Assembly: GCA_021818955.1 (NCBI GenBank)
Contig: JAKASR010000002.1
Coordinates: 171,659 to 235,658 of the forward strand
Length of the DNA stretch: 64,000 nt
Source of the DNA: Acidobacteriota bacterium
GTDB lineage: Bacteria > Acidobacteriota > Terriglobia > Terriglobales > SCQP01
Reading direction: 5' to 3'
This document shows, piece after piece, positions 1,573 through 35,072 of this stretch (positions are counted from its first letter, which is position 1; each line of letters starts with the position of its first letter). The notes below the pieces were generated by a model, which made no database searches, had not been told where the DNA came from, and saw only the letters and a program-made list of their open reading frames with translations. The position numbers and the translations under genes are program-made.

Positions 1573-4128
<2,556 letters not shown>

Positions 4129-4238: not shown

Positions 4239-5354
4239 ATGAATAAGCTTTGGCCAGCATCCCTGGACCGCTCACCCGCCGGCGCCACGCCCGCGGTCTT
4301 ACCGGCGGAGGCCGAAATCCGCTGCGGCGGGCATCGCCTGCGGCTGGAACCGGCGACGCTGCTGGCGCCGATGTCGGGCCTGACCGATACGGTTTTCCGG
4401 CGCTTCATTCGCCAGGTAGCCGAGCTGGCCGCGGCGCCGGATTCCGCCGCTGCCGAGCCGCGGCTGCCCTTCGGCGGCTGCGGGCTGATCATGACCGAAT
4501 TCACCTCGGCCGATGGACTGATCCGCTCGGAAAAAGTGGCGCGCCGGTATCTCAGCTTCGCCCCGGACGAACATCCCATCGCCGCCCAGCTTTTCGGCAG
4601 CGATGCCGTGGCGCTGTCGGAGGCGGCGCGCGTGGTGGAGGCCATGGGCTTCGATGCGGTGGATCTGAACCTTGGCTGCCCCGCCAAAAAAGTGGTCAAG
4701 TGCAATGGCGGCTCCGGGCTGTTGCGCGATTTGCCGCTGCTAGGCCGGCTGTTTGCCGCACTCCGCGCCGCGGTAAAGATTCCTCTCACGGTCAAGTTCC
4801 GCGCCGGTTGGGATGAGCGCAGCCTGGTGCACCTCGAGCTGGCCCGGATGGCGGAAGCCAGCGGCGTCAATGCGCTGGCTTTGCACGCCCGTACCCGCGC
4901 CCAAGGCTACGCCGGGCAGGCGCAATGGGATTGGATCGGCGAGGTCAAACAAGCGGTGCGGATTCCGGTCTGGGGAAACGGCGATGTCCGCTGCCCGGAG
5001 GACGCCGCCCGGTTGGTGGCTCATACCGGCTGCGATGGCATCATGATCGGGCGCGCGGCCGCGAGCAATCCCTGGATTTTTCAGCAGATCGAGACCTGGC
5101 GGCGCACCGGCGCCTATCGCGAGCCGGAACAGGCGGAGCGCGGCCGGCTGATGCTGGCCTATTTTCAACAGCTCGCGGGCGCGGGCATGCCGGGCGCTGT
5201 AGGCAAAATGAAACAATTCGCCGCCTGGTTTAGCCATGGCGTCCGCGACGGCGCCCGGCTGCGCCAGGCCATCTACACCGCCCGCGCCGAGGCGGAAGTC
5301 ATCGCCCGGGTGGAAGAGTTTTTTACCCAGCCAATAACTGAATTGGTGATTTAA
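4239..5354 (+). CDS. dus: tRNA-dihydrouridine synthase (DusB-like)
   Basis: FMN-dependent enzyme that reduces specific uridines in the tRNA D-loop. It is 371 residues long. The TIM barrel begins with LAPMSGLTDTVFRRFIRQ and continues with the active-site region LNLGCPAKKVVKCNGGSGLL, whose Cys in NLGCP is the catalytic acid, then VKFRAGWD, LHARTRAQGY and the phosphate-binding end of the barrel PVWGNGDV and GIMIGRAAASNPWIF. A helical tRNA-binding domain closes the protein. An acidic loop of about 20 residues after the first helix (AAAPDSAAAEPR) is longer than usual. It stands alone, 110 bp after gyrB and convergent with the bactofilin-like gene. Confidence 0.93.
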   Translation: MNKLWPASLDRSPAGATPAVLPAEAEIRCGGHRLRLEPATLLAPMSGLTDTVFRRFIRQVAELAAAPDSAAAEPRLPFGGCGLIMTEFTSADGLIRSEKVARRYLSFAPDEHPIAAQLFGSDAVALSEAARVVEAMGFDAVDLNLGCPAKKVVKCNGGSGLLRDLPLLGRLFAALRAAVKIPLTVKFRAGWDERSLVHLELARMAEASGVNALALHARTRAQGYAGQAQWDWIGEVKQAVRIPVWGNGDVRCPEDAARLVAHTGCDGIMIGRAAASNPWIFQQIETWRRTGAYREPEQAERGRLMLAYFQQLAGAGMPGAVGKMKQFAAWFSHGVRDGARLRQAIYTARAEAEVIARVEEFFTQPITELVI

Positions 5355-5378: not shown

Positions 5379-7154
5379 TTACGCAACCGCCGGGCGCGGA
5401 GCGCGCAACAGTTCGTAGGCGGCCAGCGCCTGCAGGCCCAGCCCCCAAACCAAAATTGCCAACAGGACGAGGCCGCCGGCGAAGGGAATCTGGTACGCTA
5501 TGCGAATAATCAGCAAGCCCACCGCCAGACGCAGCAGGAATTCCCAAAAACCGGCGGTTTTGCCCAAGAGCAGATTGCCCAGCCAGTGGGCGACAACGAT
5601 GGTGGCGAGATAAATCGCCAACAAATATAACCCCAGGGCCGCCAGGGCCAGCGGCAAACCGACTAGCGTAATAGCGATAAAAATCGCGAGTATGGGCGTG
5701 GCGATCAGCAGCACCGCGCCTGTACCCAGGCTGGCTCCCACTCGTTCCTGCTGCCGCTCGACCGCGCGGAAAAAGCCGGGAAACAGCAGCCAGAGCACCG
5801 CGCCGGCGACCAGCGCCGCCGCCCAGATCAGCGCCTGAAAAATATAAAAATGGGCGTGGCGCCAACGCCGCTTCGCCTGCAGCGACTCAAAATGCAGCCC
5901 CTGGGCCAACTGGGCGCCCGCCTGAACGGAAGGCTTATATTTACCGTGAAAAATCACCGGGCCACCGGCTTTGGCCACCGAGCCCACATTCAGATGGCCG
6001 CCACGAACTTCAAATTTTCCGTTCACGGCGCCATTGAGAAAACTAGTTTGAGATGCCGCCAGGACATTCTGATGGACGGTCCCCTCGATATCCATGATCT
6101 GGCCGCCGGAGATCAGGCTGCCTCCGATTTCCGCGTCAGGCTGGAGATTGAGCTGTTGATTCCAGGTCAGGACGCTGCCATGGATTTGCCCGCTGATATC
6201 CGCCTGCTGATTGCCGCCGAAGTAGTTGCCATGCACCTGGCCGGCGAGGCGAACTTCATGCACGAAGGCGGCGACATCGCCGCCGATGTTAGCGCCGCGA
6301 TCAATGTGCAAGGTGGCGGCAAACACGATGACGTCGCCCGTAACCTGGCCATCGATAGTCACGTCTTGCGCAAGGCTGATCAAATTACCCTGAATCACTC
6401 CATCAATACGGACATTCTGCGCATGCACGATGAGGTCGTGAGGCACGGTCATGCCCGCCAGTATGGTAAAAAAACTCTGGCCATGAATGCGCATCGGGAC
6501 CTGCATCACCTGCACCGGAGCAGTTGCGGGGGATGCCGGTTTAACCGCCGATCGGGCGGGGTGGAGCGGAGGCCGCGGCGCGGCAATTTTTACCACGCGC
6601 CCAGGGGCGGCGGCCTTCCGGACGCGCCGGGGCGCGCTCCAGGCATGGCCGGCCAGCGGCACCAGCAGGACGAACAGCACCAGCCCGAGCACGGAGCGCG
6701 GCCAATGCGCTCGCCGCGGCCGCAACAGCATCCAGGCGCAGGCGAAAAAGGCCAGGGGGCCCAGCACTTCGATGGTGTGGGTCAAAGAACCCCAGCCGTG
6801 CCAAAACATGGCGCTGAAGAGCAACGTGCTGATCAGGTTTTGACCGCCGTAGCCCATGCGGCTGGTATTGTTGATCCAAGGTTGGAGGAGCGTCAGCCAG
6901 ACGGCAAGCGCGCCGGCGATGGCCAGGCCGGCCGCGGCCAAGCCGGCGGCGAAGGCCAGACGCGGACGCGCCGCCGCAGCCTGCGGCGCATCCTGCATGC
7001 AGCTGCGCAGCCAACGGTTTTCGCGCTCTAAAGCGGCGATTTGCGCGCGACAGGCGCCGCACAACGTTACATGCCGATGCCAGCGGGAGGCGGTTTGCGC
7101 ATCCAGCTCGCCTTCGCTCCAGAGCAGCGCCGTGATGGCGTCCAGGTGTTCCAT
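5379..7154 (-). CDS. Zinc-finger anti-sigma-like membrane protein with bactofilin-like beta-helix
   Basis: A 591-residue protein with an unusual architecture. Residues 1-50 form a putative zinc-binding anti-sigma domain with H28-x3-C32-x2-C35. Four likely membrane segments follow (about 67-172), then an Ala/Pro-rich linker. From about 225 to 430 there is a repetitive beta-helix of the polymer-forming bactofilin type (VRIDGVIQGNLISLAQDVTIDG and repeats with I-x-G-x-V/I-x-G-x spacing), then four or more hydrophobic segments to the end. It starts 7 bp after the ECF sigma gene stop, so the two are co-transcribed. I infer that it is the membrane-bound anti-sigma factor, with the beta-helix as a sensory or scaffold part. 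Topology is not certain. Confidence 0.82.
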   Translation of the reverse strand: MEHLDAITALLWSEGELDAQTASRWHRHVTLCGACRAQIAALERENRWLRSCMQDAPQAAAARPRLAFAAGLAAAGLAIAGALAVWLTLLQPWINNTSRMGYGGQNLISTLLFSAMFWHGWGSLTHTIEVLGPLAFFACAWMLLRPRRAHWPRSVLGLVLFVLLVPLAGHAWSAPRRVRKAAAPGRVVKIAAPRPPLHPARSAVKPASPATAPVQVMQVPMRIHGQSFFTILAGMTVPHDLIVHAQNVRIDGVIQGNLISLAQDVTIDGQVTGDVIVFAATLHIDRGANIGGDVAAFVHEVRLAGQVHGNYFGGNQQADISGQIHGSVLTWNQQLNLQPDAEIGGSLISGGQIMDIEGTVHQNVLAASQTSFLNGAVNGKFEVRGGHLNVGSVAKAGGPVIFHGKYKPSVQAGAQLAQGLHFESLQAKRRWRHAHFYIFQALIWAAALVAGAVLWLLFPGFFRAVERQQERVGASLGTGAVLLIATPILAIFIAITLVGLPLALAALGLYLLAIYLATIVVAHWLGNLLLGKTAGFWEFLLRLAVGLLIIRIAYQIPFAGGLVLLAILVWGLGLQALAAYELLRAPRPAVA

Positions 7155-7161
7155 AAAATCT

Positions 7162-7749
7162 TCAGCTCCCGGTCTCGCCGGCCGGCGCGAGTGCCTGCCG
7201 CAACTGTTGCCGAGCCCGGAGCAGCACTACGCCAATATATGCGCGCGGCAGCCGCAACACGTCGGCAATTTCTTCATAACTGAGCTCGCTGTAATAGCGC
7301 AAGGTGAGCGCCAGCCGGGAGCGTTCCGGCAATTGCGCGAGTGCTTGCCGCATCGTCTCCGACGTCTGTCTTGCCATGATCTCATCCAGTTGATCCGGAT
7401 TGGAAACCGCCACCGGCAGTTCCTCGCTGGCTTCGGTTTCAAACCCCCGCCGGCTCTTTTGGCGCAAAATGTCCCAGCAATGATTGCCCGCCAGGCGATA
7501 GAGCCAGGGGCTGAACGGCCGCTCCGCATCATACAGGTCGAGTTTGTTTCGCAGCTTAATGAAAATGTCCCCGGTGGCGTCTTCCGCATCCTGTTGGTTG
7601 CCAAGCGCGTGGCGGCAGAAACGCATAATTGCGGGCGCAAACTGGCGATAAAGCTCTCCCCAAGCTTCGGCATCGCCTTTGCGGGCCTGGGCCAGCACCG
7701 GGCGTAGATCGTTTTCCTTGGCAGTTCGAGCCACGCGGGCGCTTTCCAT
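7162..7749 (-). CDS. ECF-family RNA polymerase sigma factor
   Basis: Extracytoplasmic-function sigma-70 factor, 195 residues from the ATG at 7749. The open frame extends upstream to 7932, but that part is basic, low in conserved sequence and probably not translated. Region 2 contains DAEDATGDIFIKL and the -10 recognition part PFSPWLYRLAGNHCWDILR. Region 4 contains LPERSRLALTLRYYSELSYEEIADVL followed by the recognition helix PRAYIGVVLLRARQQLRQAL. It pairs with the downstream zinc-finger/bactofilin-like protein, the presumed anti-sigma factor. The target promoter is unknown; an autoregulatory promoter is expected upstream but I could not identify one. Confidence 0.92.
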   Translation of the reverse strand: MESARVARTAKENDLRPVLAQARKGDAEAWGELYRQFAPAIMRFCRHALGNQQDAEDATGDIFIKLRNKLDLYDAERPFSPWLYRLAGNHCWDILRQKSRRGFETEASEELPVAVSNPDQLDEIMARQTSETMRQALAQLPERSRLALTLRYYSELSYEEIADVLRLPRAYIGVVLLRARQQLRQALAPAGETGS

Positions 7750-8064: not shown

Positions 8065-9066
8065 ATGAGCACCCCATCCGAATCACTGGTTACCGACCGG
8101 AACGCCATCTCACCCGCTAAGCTACGCAGCTTTTTAAGGCGGATGATCACCATCCGGGAATTCGAGCATTTGGGCGAGCGGGAGTTTCGTAATGGCTTGA
8201 TTCGCGGCTATTACCATTCCTATGCCGGCCAGGAAGCCGTCGGAGTGGGCTTTATCGAGGCCATGGACCTCAAGCGCGACTATATCGTGGACCATTACCG
8301 CGACCACGGCCATTGCCTGACTGTGGGTATAAGCCCGGCCAGCATTTATGCCGAGCTATTCGGCCGCCGCGGCGGGGTCTCCAAGGGCAAGGGCGGCAGC
8401 ATGCATATGTACAGCCTGGAGAAGCACTTCCTCGGCGGAGATGGCATCGTCGGGGGCGGCATTTCGGTGGCTACCGGAGTAGGGCTGGCGCTGAAACGGA
8501 TGGGTGCGGGCGGCCTTTGCGTATGCTTCTTTGGCGATGGCGCGCTGGATACCGGCACCTTCCACGAATCGCTCAATATGGCCAGCCTGTGGGATGTGCC
8601 GATTGTGTACGTCTGCATTAATAACCAGTTCAGCATGGGGACTCGGCTGGACCGCCATTCCAGCCTGACCCAATTAGTGGACCGCGCGGCCGGCTATGGC
8701 ATGGCCACCGAACAAATTGACGGCCAGGATATTGGCCTTACCCTGGCAAGCGCCGAACGCATTTTCGCCACCGTGCGCGAGCGCCAGCGTCCGGTTTTCG
8801 TGGAAGCGCTGACGTACCGCTATCAAGGGCATGGCATTCACGACAAGCCCCACAACTACCGCACGGCGGCGGAAGAAGAACCCTGGATTCATCGCGACCC
8901 GATCCTGCTGCTGAGCCAACGGCTGATGGACGAAAAGATTATGACCCAGGAGCAGATTGAGAGCATGCGGCAGGAGATCGTGGCCGAACTTGAAGCCAGC
9001 GTCGAGGAAGCCAAACGCTCGCCCCTGCCCGATGCCGGCGAGCTTTTTGAGGATGTGACTTTATAA
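8065..9066 (+). CDS. pdhA: Pyruvate dehydrogenase E1 component, alpha subunit
   Basis: Thiamine-diphosphate-dependent E1 alpha of a 2-oxo acid dehydrogenase complex (333 residues). It holds half of the decarboxylation site. The ThDP motif runs from GDG at 157-159 (FFGDGALDTGTFHESLNMA) to NN at 186-187 (YVCINNQFSMGT). The phosphorylation-loop equivalent YRYQGHGIHDKPHNYR is present; HGH at 81-83 and GSMHMY at 111-116 are family-typical. pdhB follows with no gap. No E2 or E3 gene is nearby. An acetoin or branched-chain substrate cannot be excluded, but the sequence reads most like pyruvate dehydrogenase. Confidence 0.88.
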   Translation: MSTPSESLVTDRNAISPAKLRSFLRRMITIREFEHLGEREFRNGLIRGYYHSYAGQEAVGVGFIEAMDLKRDYIVDHYRDHGHCLTVGISPASIYAELFGRRGGVSKGKGGSMHMYSLEKHFLGGDGIVGGGISVATGVGLALKRMGAGGLCVCFFGDGALDTGTFHESLNMASLWDVPIVYVCINNQFSMGTRLDRHSSLTQLVDRAAGYGMATEQIDGQDIGLTLASAERIFATVRERQRPVFVEALTYRYQGHGIHDKPHNYRTAAEEEPWIHRDPILLLSQRLMDEKIMTQEQIESMRQEIVAELEASVEEAKRSPLPDAGELFEDVTL

Positions 9067-10077
9067 ATGGCACCCATGACTACCACTATGAAGATGAAGA
9101 AAATGGCCATGCACGAGGCCTTGAACCAGGCCTTGCGCGAAGAACTGCAGCGGGATCCGCACGTGGTCATCCTGGGCGAAGAAGTCGGGCTTTATAACGG
9201 CGTGCATTATGTCACCCGCGGATTGTATTCCGAATTCGGCGGCGACCGGGTGATGGATACGCCCATCTCGGAAGAGAGTTTTGTCGGGGTCGGGGTTGGC
9301 ATGGCGATTATGGGTTTCCGTCCCGTAGTCGAAATGATGCGGATGGATTTTTCCCTGCGCGCCATGGACCAGATCTATAACCACATGGCCAAGATTCACT
9401 ACATGTCGGGCGGCGATCTGAAAGTGCCGATGGTTTTGCGCGGCCCCGAGGGTCCGGGGCCCAATTCCGGATTAACCGCGCAGCACGGGCAGCAATTAAC
9501 GGGATTGTTCGCCCATTGTCCCGGATTACGGGTGGTCACCCCCTCGACTCAATACGATGCCAAGGGAATGCTAAAGGCGGCGATTCGTTGCGACGATCCG
9601 GTGGTGTTCCTTGAGCCGGGCCCCCTGAACAACAAACAGGGCGATGTGGGCGAAGACGATTACCTGGTGCCGCTCGATCAGGCGGAAATCCGGCGGGAAG
9701 GCGGCGATGTCACCTTGATCGGCTATGGCGCCAGCGTCGCGCTCTGCCTACAGGCGGCGCGCGAGTTGGAAAAAAGCGGCGTCTCCGCCGCCGTGGTGGA
9801 CATGCGCTCGCTGCGCCCGCTCGATATGGCGCCGGCCTACGCCTCGGTGGAGCGCACCAACCGCGCCGTGGTGGTCGAATACGCCTGGCAAAGCTTCGGG
9901 CCGGGCGCCGAGATCGTCGCCCGATTGATGCAAGACGCCTTCTGGCATCTGGAATCTCCGGTGCTGCGGGTCGGCGGCAAGGAAACTCCTCTGCCCTATG
10001 CCGCGAATCTCGAGGAATTGAGCAAGCCTCAGGTCGAAGAAGTCGTCGAAGCGGCCAAGAAAACGCTGGCCGGCTAA
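9067..10077 (+). CDS. pdhB: Pyruvate dehydrogenase E1 component, beta subunit
   Basis: E1 beta subunit (336 residues), partner of the preceding alpha subunit in the alpha2beta2 heterotetramer. It begins directly after the pdhA stop; internal Met codons at residues 4, 8, 10 and 13 are alternative starts. Typical motifs are VVILGEEVGLYNGVHYVT, DTPISEESFVGVGVGMA, MRMDFSLRAMDQIYNHMAKI and the C-terminal transketolase domain with VVDMRSLRPLD and VVEYAWQSFGPGAEI. It lacks a lipoyl domain. The stoichiometric, gapless arrangement with pdhA points to translational coupling. Confidence 0.9.
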   Translation: MAPMTTTMKMKKMAMHEALNQALREELQRDPHVVILGEEVGLYNGVHYVTRGLYSEFGGDRVMDTPISEESFVGVGVGMAIMGFRPVVEMMRMDFSLRAMDQIYNHMAKIHYMSGGDLKVPMVLRGPEGPGPNSGLTAQHGQQLTGLFAHCPGLRVVTPSTQYDAKGMLKAAIRCDDPVVFLEPGPLNNKQGDVGEDDYLVPLDQAEIRREGGDVTLIGYGASVALCLQAARELEKSGVSAAVVDMRSLRPLDMAPAYASVERTNRAVVVEYAWQSFGPGAEIVARLMQDAFWHLESPVLRVGGKETPLPYAANLEELSKPQVEEVVEAAKKTLAG

Positions 10078-28960: not shown

Positions 28961-29089
28961 GCAATAAGCGCAGGATGCCGTAGGCTGGAGCGCACCATTT
29001 ATTGCCGGCCAGCAAGGATTCATCTCCTCTTGATTATTGACAAGGAAAATGCGGAGGCATATTGTCAGTAATCGAGAGGAAGAGAAGAG

Positions 29090-29431
29090 ATGAGCAAACC
29101 GACGGATCTGGTGCAAGGCACGCTGGACCTGCTGATTTTAAAAACCGTGGCGATCGAGCCGATGCACGGCTGGGGCATCGCGCAGCGCATCCGGCAAGTG
29201 TCGAAAGAAGTTTTGCAGGTCAATCAGGGAGCGCTCTATCCCGCCCTGCACCGGCTGGAACAGAACGGCTGGGTCCACGCCCGCTGGAGCGAATCGGAGA
29301 ACCACCGGCGCGCGAAATACTACGCGCTGACACCCGCCGGGCGGAAATACCTGGAGCGCGAGGAAGCCAACTGGCTACGGCTTTCGACCGCGATCGGGCT
29401 GGTGATCGGAATAGGCGAAGCCAGGGGTTAA
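29090..29431 (+). CDS. PadR-family transcriptional regulator
   Basis: Small winged-helix repressor, 113 residues. Conserved core LVQGTLDLLILKTVAIEPMHGWGIAQRI, then LQVNQGALYPALHRLEQNGWV and the wing KYYALTPAGRKYL. A purine-rich leader GAGGAAGAGAAGAG sits just upstream of the ATG. It precedes a large FtsX/MacB-type permease by 29 bp. This PadR-permease pairing is repeated many times in acidobacterial genomes. It probably controls its own operon through the repeats upstream. The effector is unknown. Confidence 0.93.
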   Translation: MSKPTDLVQGTLDLLILKTVAIEPMHGWGIAQRIRQVSKEVLQVNQGALYPALHRLEQNGWVHARWSESENHRRAKYYALTPAGRKYLEREEANWLRLSTAIGLVIGIGEARG

Positions 29432-29460
29432 GGAGAAAGGGAAGGCAAGGGCGGAGTGTT

Positions 29461-32250
29461 ATGAATCATCGGTTAACTCGACTCCCGGTTCGTTTACGCG
29501 CGCTCTTTCACCGCCGCCGGGTGGAAGCCGAACTCAAGGATGAGCTGCGCTTCCATATAGAAAAACAAATCGAACAAAACCTGGCCGCGGGCATGAGCGC
29601 GGAGGAAGCCCGCCGCTCCGCCCGGCGCGATTTGGGCGGCCTGGACGCGATTACGGAAGGCTGCCGCGAAGCCTGGCCGGCGCGCCTGCCGGGAGAAATG
29701 GCGCAGGATGTCCGCTATGGCCTGCGCCAGTTGCGCCATGCGCCCGGCTTCGCCGCCGTCATTATCCTCTCGCTGGCTTTGGGCATTGGCGCCAATTCCG
29801 CCGTCTTCAGCCTGATCAATGCGGTCATGCTGCGCAATTTGCCGGTAAAAGACCCCGGGCGACTGGCGCTGCTGAGCTGGAACAGCAATCATCGCACCCT
29901 CAGTCGTAGAGTCTTTTCATTCATGGATAATAACGGCGGCTACAACGACAAGCCGTTTGCCTGGCCGACGTACCAAACTCTACGCGACCGCAACCGCGTC
30001 TTTTCCAGCCTGTTCGGCTTCGTTCCGCTTAGCCAAGCAAATATCGGAATTGCCGGACAATCAAGCCTGGCAAATGGCGAGATGGTGACCGGCAACTATT
30101 TTTCCGGGCTGGGCGTGCAGCCTGTGCTCGGCCGCGCGATTACCAAGCAGGACGAGCGGGCGGGCGCGGCGCCGGTAACAGTGATCGGCTACGGATTATG
30201 GACGCGTCAATTCGGACAAAGCCGGCAAGTGTTAGGCAAGGCCATCAGCGTGGATGGCATGCCGTTCACGATAGTGGGAGTGGCGCCGCGAGAATTTTTT
30301 GGCGCCATGCCGGGTTATACGGACGATCTCTGGATTCCCTTCAAAGCTAATCCCAAGCTACTGCCTTATGGGGTACCGGAAGGACATTCCATGTACCTTT
30401 CGCGGCGCTGGTGGTGGCTGATCATCATGGGCCGGCTGCAGCCGGGTGTCAGCCGGCACCAAGCGGCATCGCGGATGGATTTCTTATTCCGCCAGGCGAT
30501 CACCACCGGATTGAAGCCGCCGCCCAAGTCAAACCGGCTGCCGCATCTTCAACTCTATCCAGGGGCGCGGGGGATATCGGTTTTACGGCAGCAGTTTTCA
30601 CCCGAGTTGCGGCTACCGATGATTCTGGTCGGGATCGTGCTGCTGATCGCCTGCGCGAATGTGGCCGGTCTGTTGCTGGCGCGGGCGACGGCGCGGCAAG
30701 GCGAGATTGCGGTGCGGCTATCGCTGGGGGCGCCGCGGCGGCGCCTGATCCGGCAATGGCTGACCGAAGGCCTGCTACTCAGCCTGGCCGGAGGCGCGCT
30801 GGGACTGCTTTTGGCGATGTGGGGAAGCCACGCTCTGTTGTGGCTCTTGCAGGGCAGCGGGCAATCCCTGCACCTCGACCACTCTTTGCATCTCAATCTC
30901 TCGTTCGATGGCGCGGTGCTGAGCTTTACGCTGGCGATTTCCCTTGTCACCGGCATTTTGTTTTCCATTCTTCCCGCACTGCAAGCGACGCGCATGCGGC
31001 CGGCGCCGGTCTTGAAAGGCAGCCGCGCGGATTCCAGCACGCAACCTGGCCCCATGCGGCTGGGCAAAACCCTGGTGGCCGCGCAGGTGGCCTTATCGCT
31101 GGCGCTAGTGACAGCCGCCGGATTGTTCCTACGAACGCTGGCTAATTTGGAACATCAGCCGCTAGGTTTCAACCCGCGTCATCTTCTGCTTTGTTCCATC
31201 AACCCGCAGGGTTATAAGGATGCGCAGCGGATCGAATTCTACGGTCGCCTGTTGCGGCGATTGCAATTGCTGCCGGGCGTGCAAGCGGCAACGATGTCGT
31301 CCAATTTGCTACTGGCCGGTATGCATGGATCATGGCCTATCAAGATCGAAGGTCAGGCAGCGAAGACGGGAAAAATGCTATTCGCAAACTATAATCCGGT
31401 CGGTCCATCGTTTTTTCATACCATGGGCATACGCCGTCTTTTGGGACGCGGCGTGGGCTGGCAGGATACTCCCGCCGCGCCGCGCGTCGCCGTCGTCAAT
31501 CAGGCCTTTGCGCGAAAATTTCTCGGCGGCGGCAACCCCATCGGGCATACGTTCCGCTTCGGCTATTACCAATTCAAGGCCAGGCAGTTCAGCCCGGGGT
31601 ATCGGATTGTGGGCATGGTGCAGGATGCTAAATATGCCCGCCTGCGCAATTCTCCCAGCCCGACCATTTATTTGCCCTATACTCAAGCATTTTGGCTTTT
31701 GCCCAAATTCGGCATGAATTTCGAATTGCGCGCGGCGCACGGCAATCCGCTGGCGCTGGCGCCCGCGGTGCGGCAAACCATACATGGCCTCGATCCGATG
31801 CTGCCCATCGCCGCTTTAAAAACCCAAAGCCAACAGATTGCCACCGCGCTGGCGCCTGAGCGCGCCTATGCCTGGCTGTGGGGGCTGTTCAGCGGATTGG
31901 CGGTGCTGCTGGCGGCTATCGGGTTGTATGGACTCATGGCCTACGCGGTCACGCGGCGAACGCATGAAATCGGCATCCGCATGGCGCTGGGCGCGGAGCG
32001 CGCCGGAATTAGCCGTATGGTCGTGCGCGAGGTATTATGGCTGGCCGCCATCGGCGCGGCCTGCGGGTTGGCGCTGGCGGCGGGCTTTACACGCTTTATC
32101 GCCAGCCTGCTATACGGCGTGCGCCCGCTGGATGCGGCGACGCTGGCGCTGGCGGCCTCCGCGGTGCTGCTGGTCGCGGCGCTGGCCGGCTGGCTGCCGG
32201 CGCGCCGCGCCGCGCGCGTGGACCCGCTGCAGGCGCTGCGCTATGAGTGA
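29461..32250 (+). CDS. ADOP-type FtsX/MacB-like permease
   Basis: Large permease of the acidobacterial duplicated type, 929 residues from the ATG at 29461. A cytoplasmic N-terminal segment with helices (ELKDELRFHIEKQIEQNLAAG then MSAEEARRSA) is followed by TM1 (VIILSLALGIGANSAVFSLI), a MacB-like periplasmic domain with NYFSGLGVQPVLGR, three membrane segments around LRLPMILVGIVLLIACANVA, a second periplasmic domain and a final TM bundle ending RAARVDPLQALRYE. No ATPase gene is adjacent, as usual for this group. Export of peptides or lipids, or a mechanotransmission role, is inferred from MacB; substrate unknown. Confidence 0.9.
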   Translation: MNHRLTRLPVRLRALFHRRRVEAELKDELRFHIEKQIEQNLAAGMSAEEARRSARRDLGGLDAITEGCREAWPARLPGEMAQDVRYGLRQLRHAPGFAAVIILSLALGIGANSAVFSLINAVMLRNLPVKDPGRLALLSWNSNHRTLSRRVFSFMDNNGGYNDKPFAWPTYQTLRDRNRVFSSLFGFVPLSQANIGIAGQSSLANGEMVTGNYFSGLGVQPVLGRAITKQDERAGAAPVTVIGYGLWTRQFGQSRQVLGKAISVDGMPFTIVGVAPREFFGAMPGYTDDLWIPFKANPKLLPYGVPEGHSMYLSRRWWWLIIMGRLQPGVSRHQAASRMDFLFRQAITTGLKPPPKSNRLPHLQLYPGARGISVLRQQFSPELRLPMILVGIVLLIACANVAGLLLARATARQGEIAVRLSLGAPRRRLIRQWLTEGLLLSLAGGALGLLLAMWGSHALLWLLQGSGQSLHLDHSLHLNLSFDGAVLSFTLAISLVTGILFSILPALQATRMRPAPVLKGSRADSSTQPGPMRLGKTLVAAQVALSLALVTAAGLFLRTLANLEHQPLGFNPRHLLLCSINPQGYKDAQRIEFYGRLLRRLQLLPGVQAATMSSNLLLAGMHGSWPIKIEGQAAKTGKMLFANYNPVGPSFFHTMGIRRLLGRGVGWQDTPAAPRVAVVNQAFARKFLGGGNPIGHTFRFGYYQFKARQFSPGYRIVGMVQDAKYARLRNSPSPTIYLPYTQAFWLLPKFGMNFELRAAHGNPLALAPAVRQTIHGLDPMLPIAALKTQSQQIATALAPERAYAWLWGLFSGLAVLLAAIGLYGLMAYAVTRRTHEIGIRMALGAERAGISRMVVREVLWLAAIGAACGLALAAGFTRFIASLLYGVRPLDAATLALAASAVLLVAALAGWLPARRAARVDPLQALRYE

Positions 32251-33494: not shown

Positions 33495-35072
33495 ATGGCG
33501 GCTCAACCCATGCCCGACCGGCAAGCCAGCATTACCGTCACGCCAGGTTCGATCAACCCGAGCCGGCTGCTGCTGGCGGCGGCGATGGCCGGCGCGGCCG
33601 GAGACGCGCTGTTGCGGGTGGGTCCGATGGGCCTCAATGTCGCGCTTTGGGCGGCGGTGCTGGTGGCGCTGACACTGTGGGTGACGCGGGGGCGGGTGGT
33701 GATTTCGCGCCGCGACGATATCGCGGGCGCGGCCCTGCTGCTGCTCTTCGCCGCCGGCTTTGCCTGGCGCGCCGACCCGGTACTGCAGTTTTTGAGCCTG
33801 TGCGGCCTGGGCGCGGTGATTTTGCTGGCGGCGATGCGCCGGCCGGCCGCGAGGCTGGCCGCCTCCGGCATGCTGGATTTTGCCCGCGGCGGGGCGCTGG
33901 CCGCGTTCCATATCGCCACCGGAGCGCCGCTGCTGCTTTTCAAAGACATCAATTGGAAGCGCGCGCAAGGTGCGGCGCGATGGGGAGTGGTCGGATTGCG
34001 CGGCGCGCTGCTGGCGTTTCCCTTCCTGCTGGTATTCGGCGCGCTGCTGATGGGCGCCGATCCGGTTTTCAGCCGGCTGGTTTACCACCAGTTGCACATC
34101 AACCTGCCGCGGCTGCTTTCCCACACCCTCCTGATGCTGTTTTTCGCCTGGATCGTGGGCGGTTTTTTGCGGGGAATTTTGGGACCGGATTCCACTCCGG
34201 TGAACTGGCCGGAACGGCCGGAACGTTTTGGCGCGGGCGCGGCGGAGCTGGCAATCGCGCTGGGGCTGCTGGATGCGCTGTTTTTCGCCTTCGTGGCGGT
34301 GCAATTCCGGTATTTATTCGGCGGCACGCGGCGGGTAATGATTACCCCGCATCTGACCTACGCGCAATACGCGCGCCATGGTTTTTTCGAGCTGACGGCG
34401 GTGATCGCCCTGGCGCTGCCCTTACTGCTGGCCGCCCATTGGCTGCGGCGTCCGGGCGAAGCGGCGGCGCCGGGATCGCGCTGGTTCGCATGGCCAGCCG
34501 GCGCGATGGCGGGCTTGTTATTCATCATTCTGGCTTCGGCGCTATTCCGGATGCGGCTCTATCAACTGACTTATGGCTTAACCGAGCCGCGCTTCTACAC
34601 CACCGCGTTCATGGTTTGGCTGGGGCTGCTGCTGGGCTGGTTTATCTGGACGGTCTTGCGGGAAAGGCGGCAGCGGTTCGCGTTCGGGGCGCTGGTATCG
34701 GCGCTGGCGGCGATTGTCATTTTGCAGGCGGTCAATCCCGCGGCGCTCGTCGCCAAGTCGGATATTCAGCGCGCGCTGGCGGGCAAAAAATACGATGCCG
34801 GCTACATTGCCCGGCTCGGCAGCGACGCGGCGCCGGCGATCGCGGCAGGCTTGCCGAAGCTGCCGCTGCCGGCGCGCTGCGCCATGCTGCAGCGTTTTGC
34901 CCTCGACCTCAAAACTCAAGCGCAGCGCCCCCACTGGAGTGACTGGCGCACCTGGAACTGGTCGCGCAGGCGGGCGCGAAAGCTAGAGCGGCAGGCGCTG
35001 GCAACCGAGCTGCCCGCTTCCGGCTGCCCGCCGCCAGCTATAGGAAACAACCATGCGGCCGCGGGTAATTGA
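33495..35072 (+). CDS. DUF4173-type polytopic membrane protein
   Basis: 525 residues with about 11 to 13 hydrophobic segments from residue 26 to 430. A hydrophilic C-terminal part (about 435-525) contains an Ala-rich helical region and ends His-Ala-Ala-Ala-Gly-Asn. Conserved points such as LLLFKDINWKR, MGADPVFSRLV and the aromatic RFYTTAFMVWLG stretch recall DUF4153/DUF4173 proteins. Function unknown. It lies 41 bp after the winged-helix gene and overlaps the next small gene by 20 bp, so it belongs to the same cassette. Confidence 0.78.
   Translation: MAAQPMPDRQASITVTPGSINPSRLLLAAAMAGAAGDALLRVGPMGLNVALWAAVLVALTLWVTRGRVVISRRDDIAGAALLLLFAAGFAWRADPVLQFLSLCGLGAVILLAAMRRPAARLAASGMLDFARGGALAAFHIATGAPLLLFKDINWKRAQGAARWGVVGLRGALLAFPFLLVFGALLMGADPVFSRLVYHQLHINLPRLLSHTLLMLFFAWIVGGFLRGILGPDSTPVNWPERPERFGAGAAELAIALGLLDALFFAFVAVQFRYLFGGTRRVMITPHLTYAQYARHGFFELTAVIALALPLLLAAHWLRRPGEAAAPGSRWFAWPAGAMAGLLFIILASALFRMRLYQLTYGLTEPRFYTTAFMVWLGLLLGWFIWTVLRERRQRFAFGALVSALAAIVILQAVNPAALVAKSDIQRALAGKKYDAGYIARLGSDAAPAIAAGLPKLPLPARCAMLQRFALDLKTQAQRPHWSDWRTWNWSRRRARKLERQALATELPASGCPPPAIGNNHAAAGN

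Follow-up and report, generated by a model that had tools for sequence, protein, structure and literature searches.

An ECF sigma factor gene followed by a fused anti-sigma/bactofilin-type gene in Acidobacteriota, and a possible exported partner for an envelope-signalling system

What could an ECF sigma factor be responding to when the gene that follows it encodes, in a single open frame, a zinc-finger anti-sigma domain, a set of membrane segments, a bactofilin-type beta-helix and a second membrane bundle? Most of what is known about ECF systems concerns their cytoplasmic halves, and the signal sensed is often unknown, which gives a protein of this kind an interest beyond its unusual architecture. 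The gene pair that raises the question lies in a 64,000-nt stretch of DNA from an Acidobacteriota bacterium (the whole of which we call the window), and its features are collected in Table 1.

The list of open reading frames bears out the pairing of an ECF sigma gene with a fused partner gene that had been proposed in a preliminary description of this DNA. The fusion gene is the downstream member of the pair and is separated from the end of the sigma gene by 7 bases; the latter starts at an ATG at position 7749 that is conserved in the closest relative examined here (genome G001). The upstream product is an ECF sigma factor, a protein of about 200 residues with regions 2 and 4 that matches the Pfam families Sigma70 r2 (51.2 bits) and r4_2 (42.1 bits) above their cut-offs and the sigma70-ECF family TIGR02937 at 103.5 bits (cut-off 42.9). 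The genes flanking the pair look like housekeeping genes: from their translations, we take the frames at 1660-4128, 4239-5354 and 8065-10077 to resemble gyrase B, a dihydrouridine synthase and the E1 subunits of pyruvate dehydrogenase, respectively. Elsewhere in the window, the plus strand encodes a 1062-residue MacB/FtsX-type permease (29062-32250) and a DUF4153 protein (33495-35072). No clear promoter emerged from an alignment of four rows covering the region ahead of the sigma gene, and a scan for sigma-70 promoters returned one site against 0.9 expected; an Rfam search of the window gave no matches.

Table 1. Positions in the window of the sigma and fusion genes and of the parts of the fused protein (residue numbers are those of the fused protein)
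Feature	Position	Strand	Basis
ECF sigma factor gene, 195 aa + stop	7162-7749	minus	Pfam, TIGR02937, conserved start
Anti-sigma/bactofilin fusion gene, 591 aa + stop	5379-7154	minus	single open frame; recurs with ECF gene upstream
Anti-sigma domain, residues 1-60	6975-7154	minus	invariant ligands, profile matches, three helices within 6-53
Zinc ligands H28, C32, C35 (H-x3-C-x2-C)	7050-7073	minus	conservation
TM1, residues 64-95	6870-6965	minus	hydropathy (65-91), AlphaFold helix
Short amphipathic helix, residues 106-117	6804-6839	minus	low-confidence AlphaFold helix
TM2, residues 121-143	6726-6794	minus	AlphaFold helix; hydropathy (130-144)
Basic loop (145-153) and signal-peptide-like TM3 (151-173)	6633-6722	minus	loop charge, motif count
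Bactofilin-type right-handed beta-helix, residues 222-424	5883-6491	minus	PF04519, pLDDT ~97, match to 2n3d
C-terminal membrane bundle, ~5 helices, residues 434-584	5403-5855	minus	AlphaFold pLDDT ~90

With its N-terminal H-x3-C-x2-C helical domain adjoining an ECF gene, the fused protein is a probable member of the class I zinc anti-sigma factors, a family in which this domain holds the sigma factor. The zinc finger had been recognized at the outset, and it is borne out by the invariance of its three ligands in all 21 intact fused proteins (alignment A4) and by the match of the N-terminus of the 21-protein profile to the solved anti-sigma factor RsiW (E 4e-5), with further matches to 3hug, ChrR and DdvA. 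Pfam zf-HC2 is found in 18 of the 21 family members at E <= 0.01; the window protein itself is unlisted for it at E <= 1. The N-terminus of the same profile weakly matches residues 8-108 of PDB 8rot_B (E 0.0014), a solved CHAT-domain protein, a match that hints at an anti-sigma-like domain at the start of that protein.

The second half of the protein belongs to PF04519 (Bactofilin), which it matches at 38 bits, above the curated cut-off of 27.9; 19 of the 21 fused members match the family at E <= 0.01, and the family profile over the beta-helix matches Bactofilin A (E 2e-4) and a Thermus bactofilin (E 0.025). An AlphaFold2 model built from the 21 sequences (mean pLDDT 79.4) is confident for the anti-sigma helices (~84-90) as well as for the beta-helix and the bundle (Table 1), and falls below 50 over much of residues 96-211, so that it is poor at the junction. 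Foldseek comparison of both models with the PDB gave no match at E <= 0.001, and the weak rows of the structure comparison (2n3d, TMt 0.59; 6rib, TMt 0.51) have non-significant E-values. Upon re-alignment the list became a mixture of unrelated beta-helices with no bactofilin row, so the fold by itself cannot name the family. No Pfam family matched the C-terminal bundle. The Pfam score, the Bactofilin A match and the model uphold the original description of a bactofilin-type beta-helix followed by a membrane bundle, in a form that departs from the canonical cytoplasmic bactofilins in its length of ~203 residues and in the membrane segments that stand on both sides of it.

Proteins of this composition recur. 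The fusion was found at 22 loci, and at every one of them an ECF gene lies immediately upstream; 21 loci are intact, and the remaining one carries an in-frame stop and was kept out of the set of 21. Among 60 genomes of the source family, including the source genome, five encode the protein, with identities to the window protein of 65% (G001, alignment covering residues 1-590), 46% (G004), 43% (G008) and 39% (G006, whose single frame aligns in two segments). G006 also carries, on the same strand and ~1 kb downstream of its fused pair, a second ECF-like gene and an apparent zinc-finger anti-sigma gene (L013:4172-6113). A scan of genome contigs with the window protein alone as query returned no relatives; repeated with alignment A1, it returned 24 loci. 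The relatives that have names come from Acidobacteria or Terriglobia bins and one Myxococcota bin. A profile of the C-terminal half (A3) matched 35 of 140 genomes in the Myxococcota phylum, and among the 30 loci listed there, 22 have an ECF gene on the same strand, and in 10 the zinc motif is read in one frame with the C-terminal half, which makes them fusions.

In a quick tree of 73 C-terminal halves, made without bootstrap, all 21 intact fusions (11 from Acidobacteriota and 10 from the Myxococcota search) fall into one clade with an SH-aLRT value of 96. Only one change of state is needed, and on this tree the fusion traces to a single event. Two Acidobacteriota loci at which the genes are separate, L019 and L020, lie near the fused clade, and a second group is made up of 31 other split genes linked to an ECF gene. 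Long stop-to-stop frames at L137, L138, L142, L167 and other loci were considered as further fusions and rejected; they appear to be frame shadows that precede a fresh signal peptide, and these loci are counted as split for this reason.

The gene order at the split loci is ECF sigma gene, gene for a two-TM anti-sigma factor, and gene for an exported bactofilin-like protein with a membrane bundle, and comparison of the sequences identifies the fused gene as the second and third genes of this operon joined together. At L019 and L020 the middle protein (182 or 192 residues) scores above the Pfam cut-off for zf-HC2 and has at least two hydrophobic segments, and the third frame (429 and 376 residues) scores above the cut-off for Bactofilin and has its own signal-peptide-like start and membrane bundle. 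Matches to profile A3, some of whose rows are themselves linked to ECF genes, were found in 203 of 297 Acidobacteriota genomes. An ECF gene is present at 8 of the best 30 places and, on the same strand upstream, at 53 of the next 60 that were fetched, several of which share one genus; the latter count was 51 with an initial gap window of -300 to 1500, and a post hoc widening to -700 added L141 and L183. Two places, in G238 and G174, were skipped in the 60 since they were already represented as L043 and L044, both with an ECF gene. All 53 loci have a middle frame with at least two hydrophobic segments, and in 42 of them it carries the H-x3-C-x2-C motif. No ECF gene occurs within ~1.5 kb on each side of 30 canonical bactofilin loci of Acidobacteriota, a comparison in which the flanks were unequal (2.5 kb for the exported genes, 1.5 kb for the canonical ones).

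Single records named WOR-3, Stahlbacteria, proteobacterium and Pedosphaera contain split operons as well. Within the phylum to which a Pedosphaera genome belongs, A3 matches 37 of 145 genomes and an ECF gene is found at 3 of the 30 loci listed. Taken with the 8 of 30 best places in Acidobacteriota, this suggests that the exported protein also works in the absence of an ECF partner. Members of the exported family with no detected ECF gene include L055, L056, L058, L059, L061 and L062, from records named as Actinomycetes, haloarchaea, Pontiellaceae and Coriobacteriia-type bins. For the short split proteins "bactofilin-like" is the safer name, since the two that were tested (L132 and L166) fall below the Pfam Bactofilin cut-off.

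Because the three parts are separate neighbouring genes in many relatives, the third protein is probably the extracytoplasmic partner of the anti-sigma factor, and the reading that we favour, by a modest measure over even chances, is that of an ECF module in which the anti-sigma gene and the gene after it in the operon, that of an exported bactofilin-type partner, have become one. The N-terminal zinc domain, carried by two TM helices, would hold the ECF sigma factor in the cytoplasm, and the third, signal-peptide-like segment would send the beta-helix across the inner membrane, where the bundle of ~5 helices would anchor its far end and leave it in the periplasm as a membrane-tethered domain. 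The state of the beta-helix, as set by damage to the envelope or wall, by loss of a partner or by its own assembly, would then most likely alter the stability or the grip of the anti-sigma factor and so free the sigma factor. Signal peptidase I may cut the junction, in which case the fused product would be a polyprotein. A bolder extension, which we consider rather unlikely, would have a dedicated pair of ECF and two-TM anti-sigma factors monitor, across several phyla, the assembly of or strain in an extracytoplasmic scaffold of exported bactofilin-like proteins; in one lineage of Acidobacteriota and Myxococcota, anti-sigma factor and sensor would be made as one precursor and separated by signal peptidase.

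The exported bactofilin may instead be an output, with the ECF factor driving its own operon so that the third product, an envelope scaffold, is made when needed; signal peptidase would then part the two products of the fused form, and the fusion would only fix their ratio. The bactofilin gene does stand last in the operon, a cleavage-like junction would make the fusion incidental, and the exported family includes many proteins that lack a neighbouring ECF gene. Against these points, the fusion arose once and has persisted in two phyla, and two groups of the tree contain operons in which the anti-sigma gene stands in the middle; an output gene would not need as much. We regard the output role as possible and clearly the less probable of the two.

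The favoured reading places the beta-helix outside the inner membrane, and here we part from the preliminary description, which counted four TM helices ahead of the beta-helix and had it face the cytoplasm. Hydropathy finds three hydrophobic segments there (65-91, 130-144 and 151-173). The would-be fourth helix of the AlphaFold model, at 106-117, is a short one predicted with low confidence and contains no 15-residue hydrophobic segment by hydropathy; it probably does not span the membrane. Summed over the 21 fused proteins, the loop between TM2 and TM3 has 58 K+R and one D+E and is net positive in 20, so this loop should be inside and TM3 should cross outward; a zinc domain inside and three crossings would likewise place the beta-helix outside. 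TM3 resembles a Sec signal peptide; in the window protein it ends in G-H-A/W-S-A, a candidate signal peptidase I site, and an [AGSVTL]-x-A motif with a P/G breaker is found at the end of TM3 in 19 of 21 proteins as compared to 2 of 20 for TM1 with the same script, which mistakes the short helix for TM1 in L048-L050; with the breaker left out, the counts are 19/21 and 9/20. The protein of G162 fails the script even though GHA-VEI can be read by eye (the count was kept at 19), and the G006 fusion has no cleavage motif.

Relatives point the same way. A signal-peptide-like start is seen in 38 of 52 unfused C-terminal-half relatives (24 of 33 split, 14 of 19 ECF-free) by a crude scan that has doubtful matches (L060, L164 and L212) as well as misses. 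One protein, L052, has lost TM1 and TM2 and kept one hydrophobic stretch; the stretch is short, below the hydropathy threshold used and not preceded by basic residues, and the case has little weight alone because it is sub-threshold. In the C-terminal bundle, two predicted outer loops carry zero charge, and one predicted inner loop (526-537) has a net positive charge in just 5 of the 21 proteins. We conclude that the beta-helix most likely faces the periplasm. A four-helix protein with a cytoplasmic beta-helix that joins or reports on the ordinary bactofilin cytoskeleton would accord with the cytoplasmic side on which canonical bactofilins are described (PMC12448750), with the two other PF04519 genes of the source genome and with a count in which helix 106-117 is taken as a fourth TM segment; set against the basic loop, the signal-peptide-like TM3, the exported unfused relatives and L052, it seems improbable to us.

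The 43% copy in G008, a bin that is 54% complete, has one in-frame TAG (L014:6516-6518) within its beta-helix part, which is either decay or a sequencing error. Such events therefore do occur in bins of this fused family, and yet the joining of two genes by a sequencing frameshift, which the preliminary description had named as fatal to its account, or by an assembly error has a negligible probability, since the frame is open at 21 intact loci spread over two phyla and the junction is conserved. The fusion beside its ECF sigma gene is genuine, and the proposed link from envelope state to transcription is plausible.

These observations point to an exported bactofilin-type partner of an ECF/anti-sigma system as an undescribed envelope-signalling system. 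In literature searches on bactofilins with anti-sigma or ECF factors the system was not described; the main ECF reclassification (gkaa1229) and the halofilin papers were outside their coverage, and an earlier mention is possible. A recurring three-gene operon, together with the fusion of its second and third genes, names a likely extracytoplasmic partner and makes it testable, and it brings into view a large class of bactofilin-like proteins that are exported, bactofilins being usually described as an inner-face cytoskeleton.

Among known proteins, Halofilin B of Haloferax is a bactofilin relative on the outer cell surface and is not known to be linked to a sigma factor. It is reported to be found at negative curvatures (PMC12186497). 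The canonical bactofilins, such as BacA and the Thermus bactofilin, share the PF04519 beta-helix with the fusion; short non-membrane tails and nucleotide-independent polymerisation are characteristic of them. They have a core of ~100 residues (PMC12364344) and are described from the inner face of the membrane, with ~3.2% reported to have predicted N-terminal TM helices (PMC12448750), whereas the beta-helix of the fusion has ~200 residues, is probably exported and stands between TM helices. The RsiW, RslA and ChrR type of class I zinc anti-sigma factor shares with the fusion the N-terminal H-x3-C-x2-C domain encoded directly after the ECF gene, and most class I proteins are, like the fusion, membrane-bound, one survey giving ~65% with at least one TM helix and ~56% with the zinc motif (PMC7406223). 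The fusion differs in its extracytoplasmic part, which would consist of a bactofilin-type beta-helix and a further membrane bundle. In the RsiP/SigP system, the signal peptidase SipP is described as cutting the anti-sigma factor at site 1 (PMC8844934), a cut that is regulated and starts activation, while the cut that the fusion may undergo could be constitutive.
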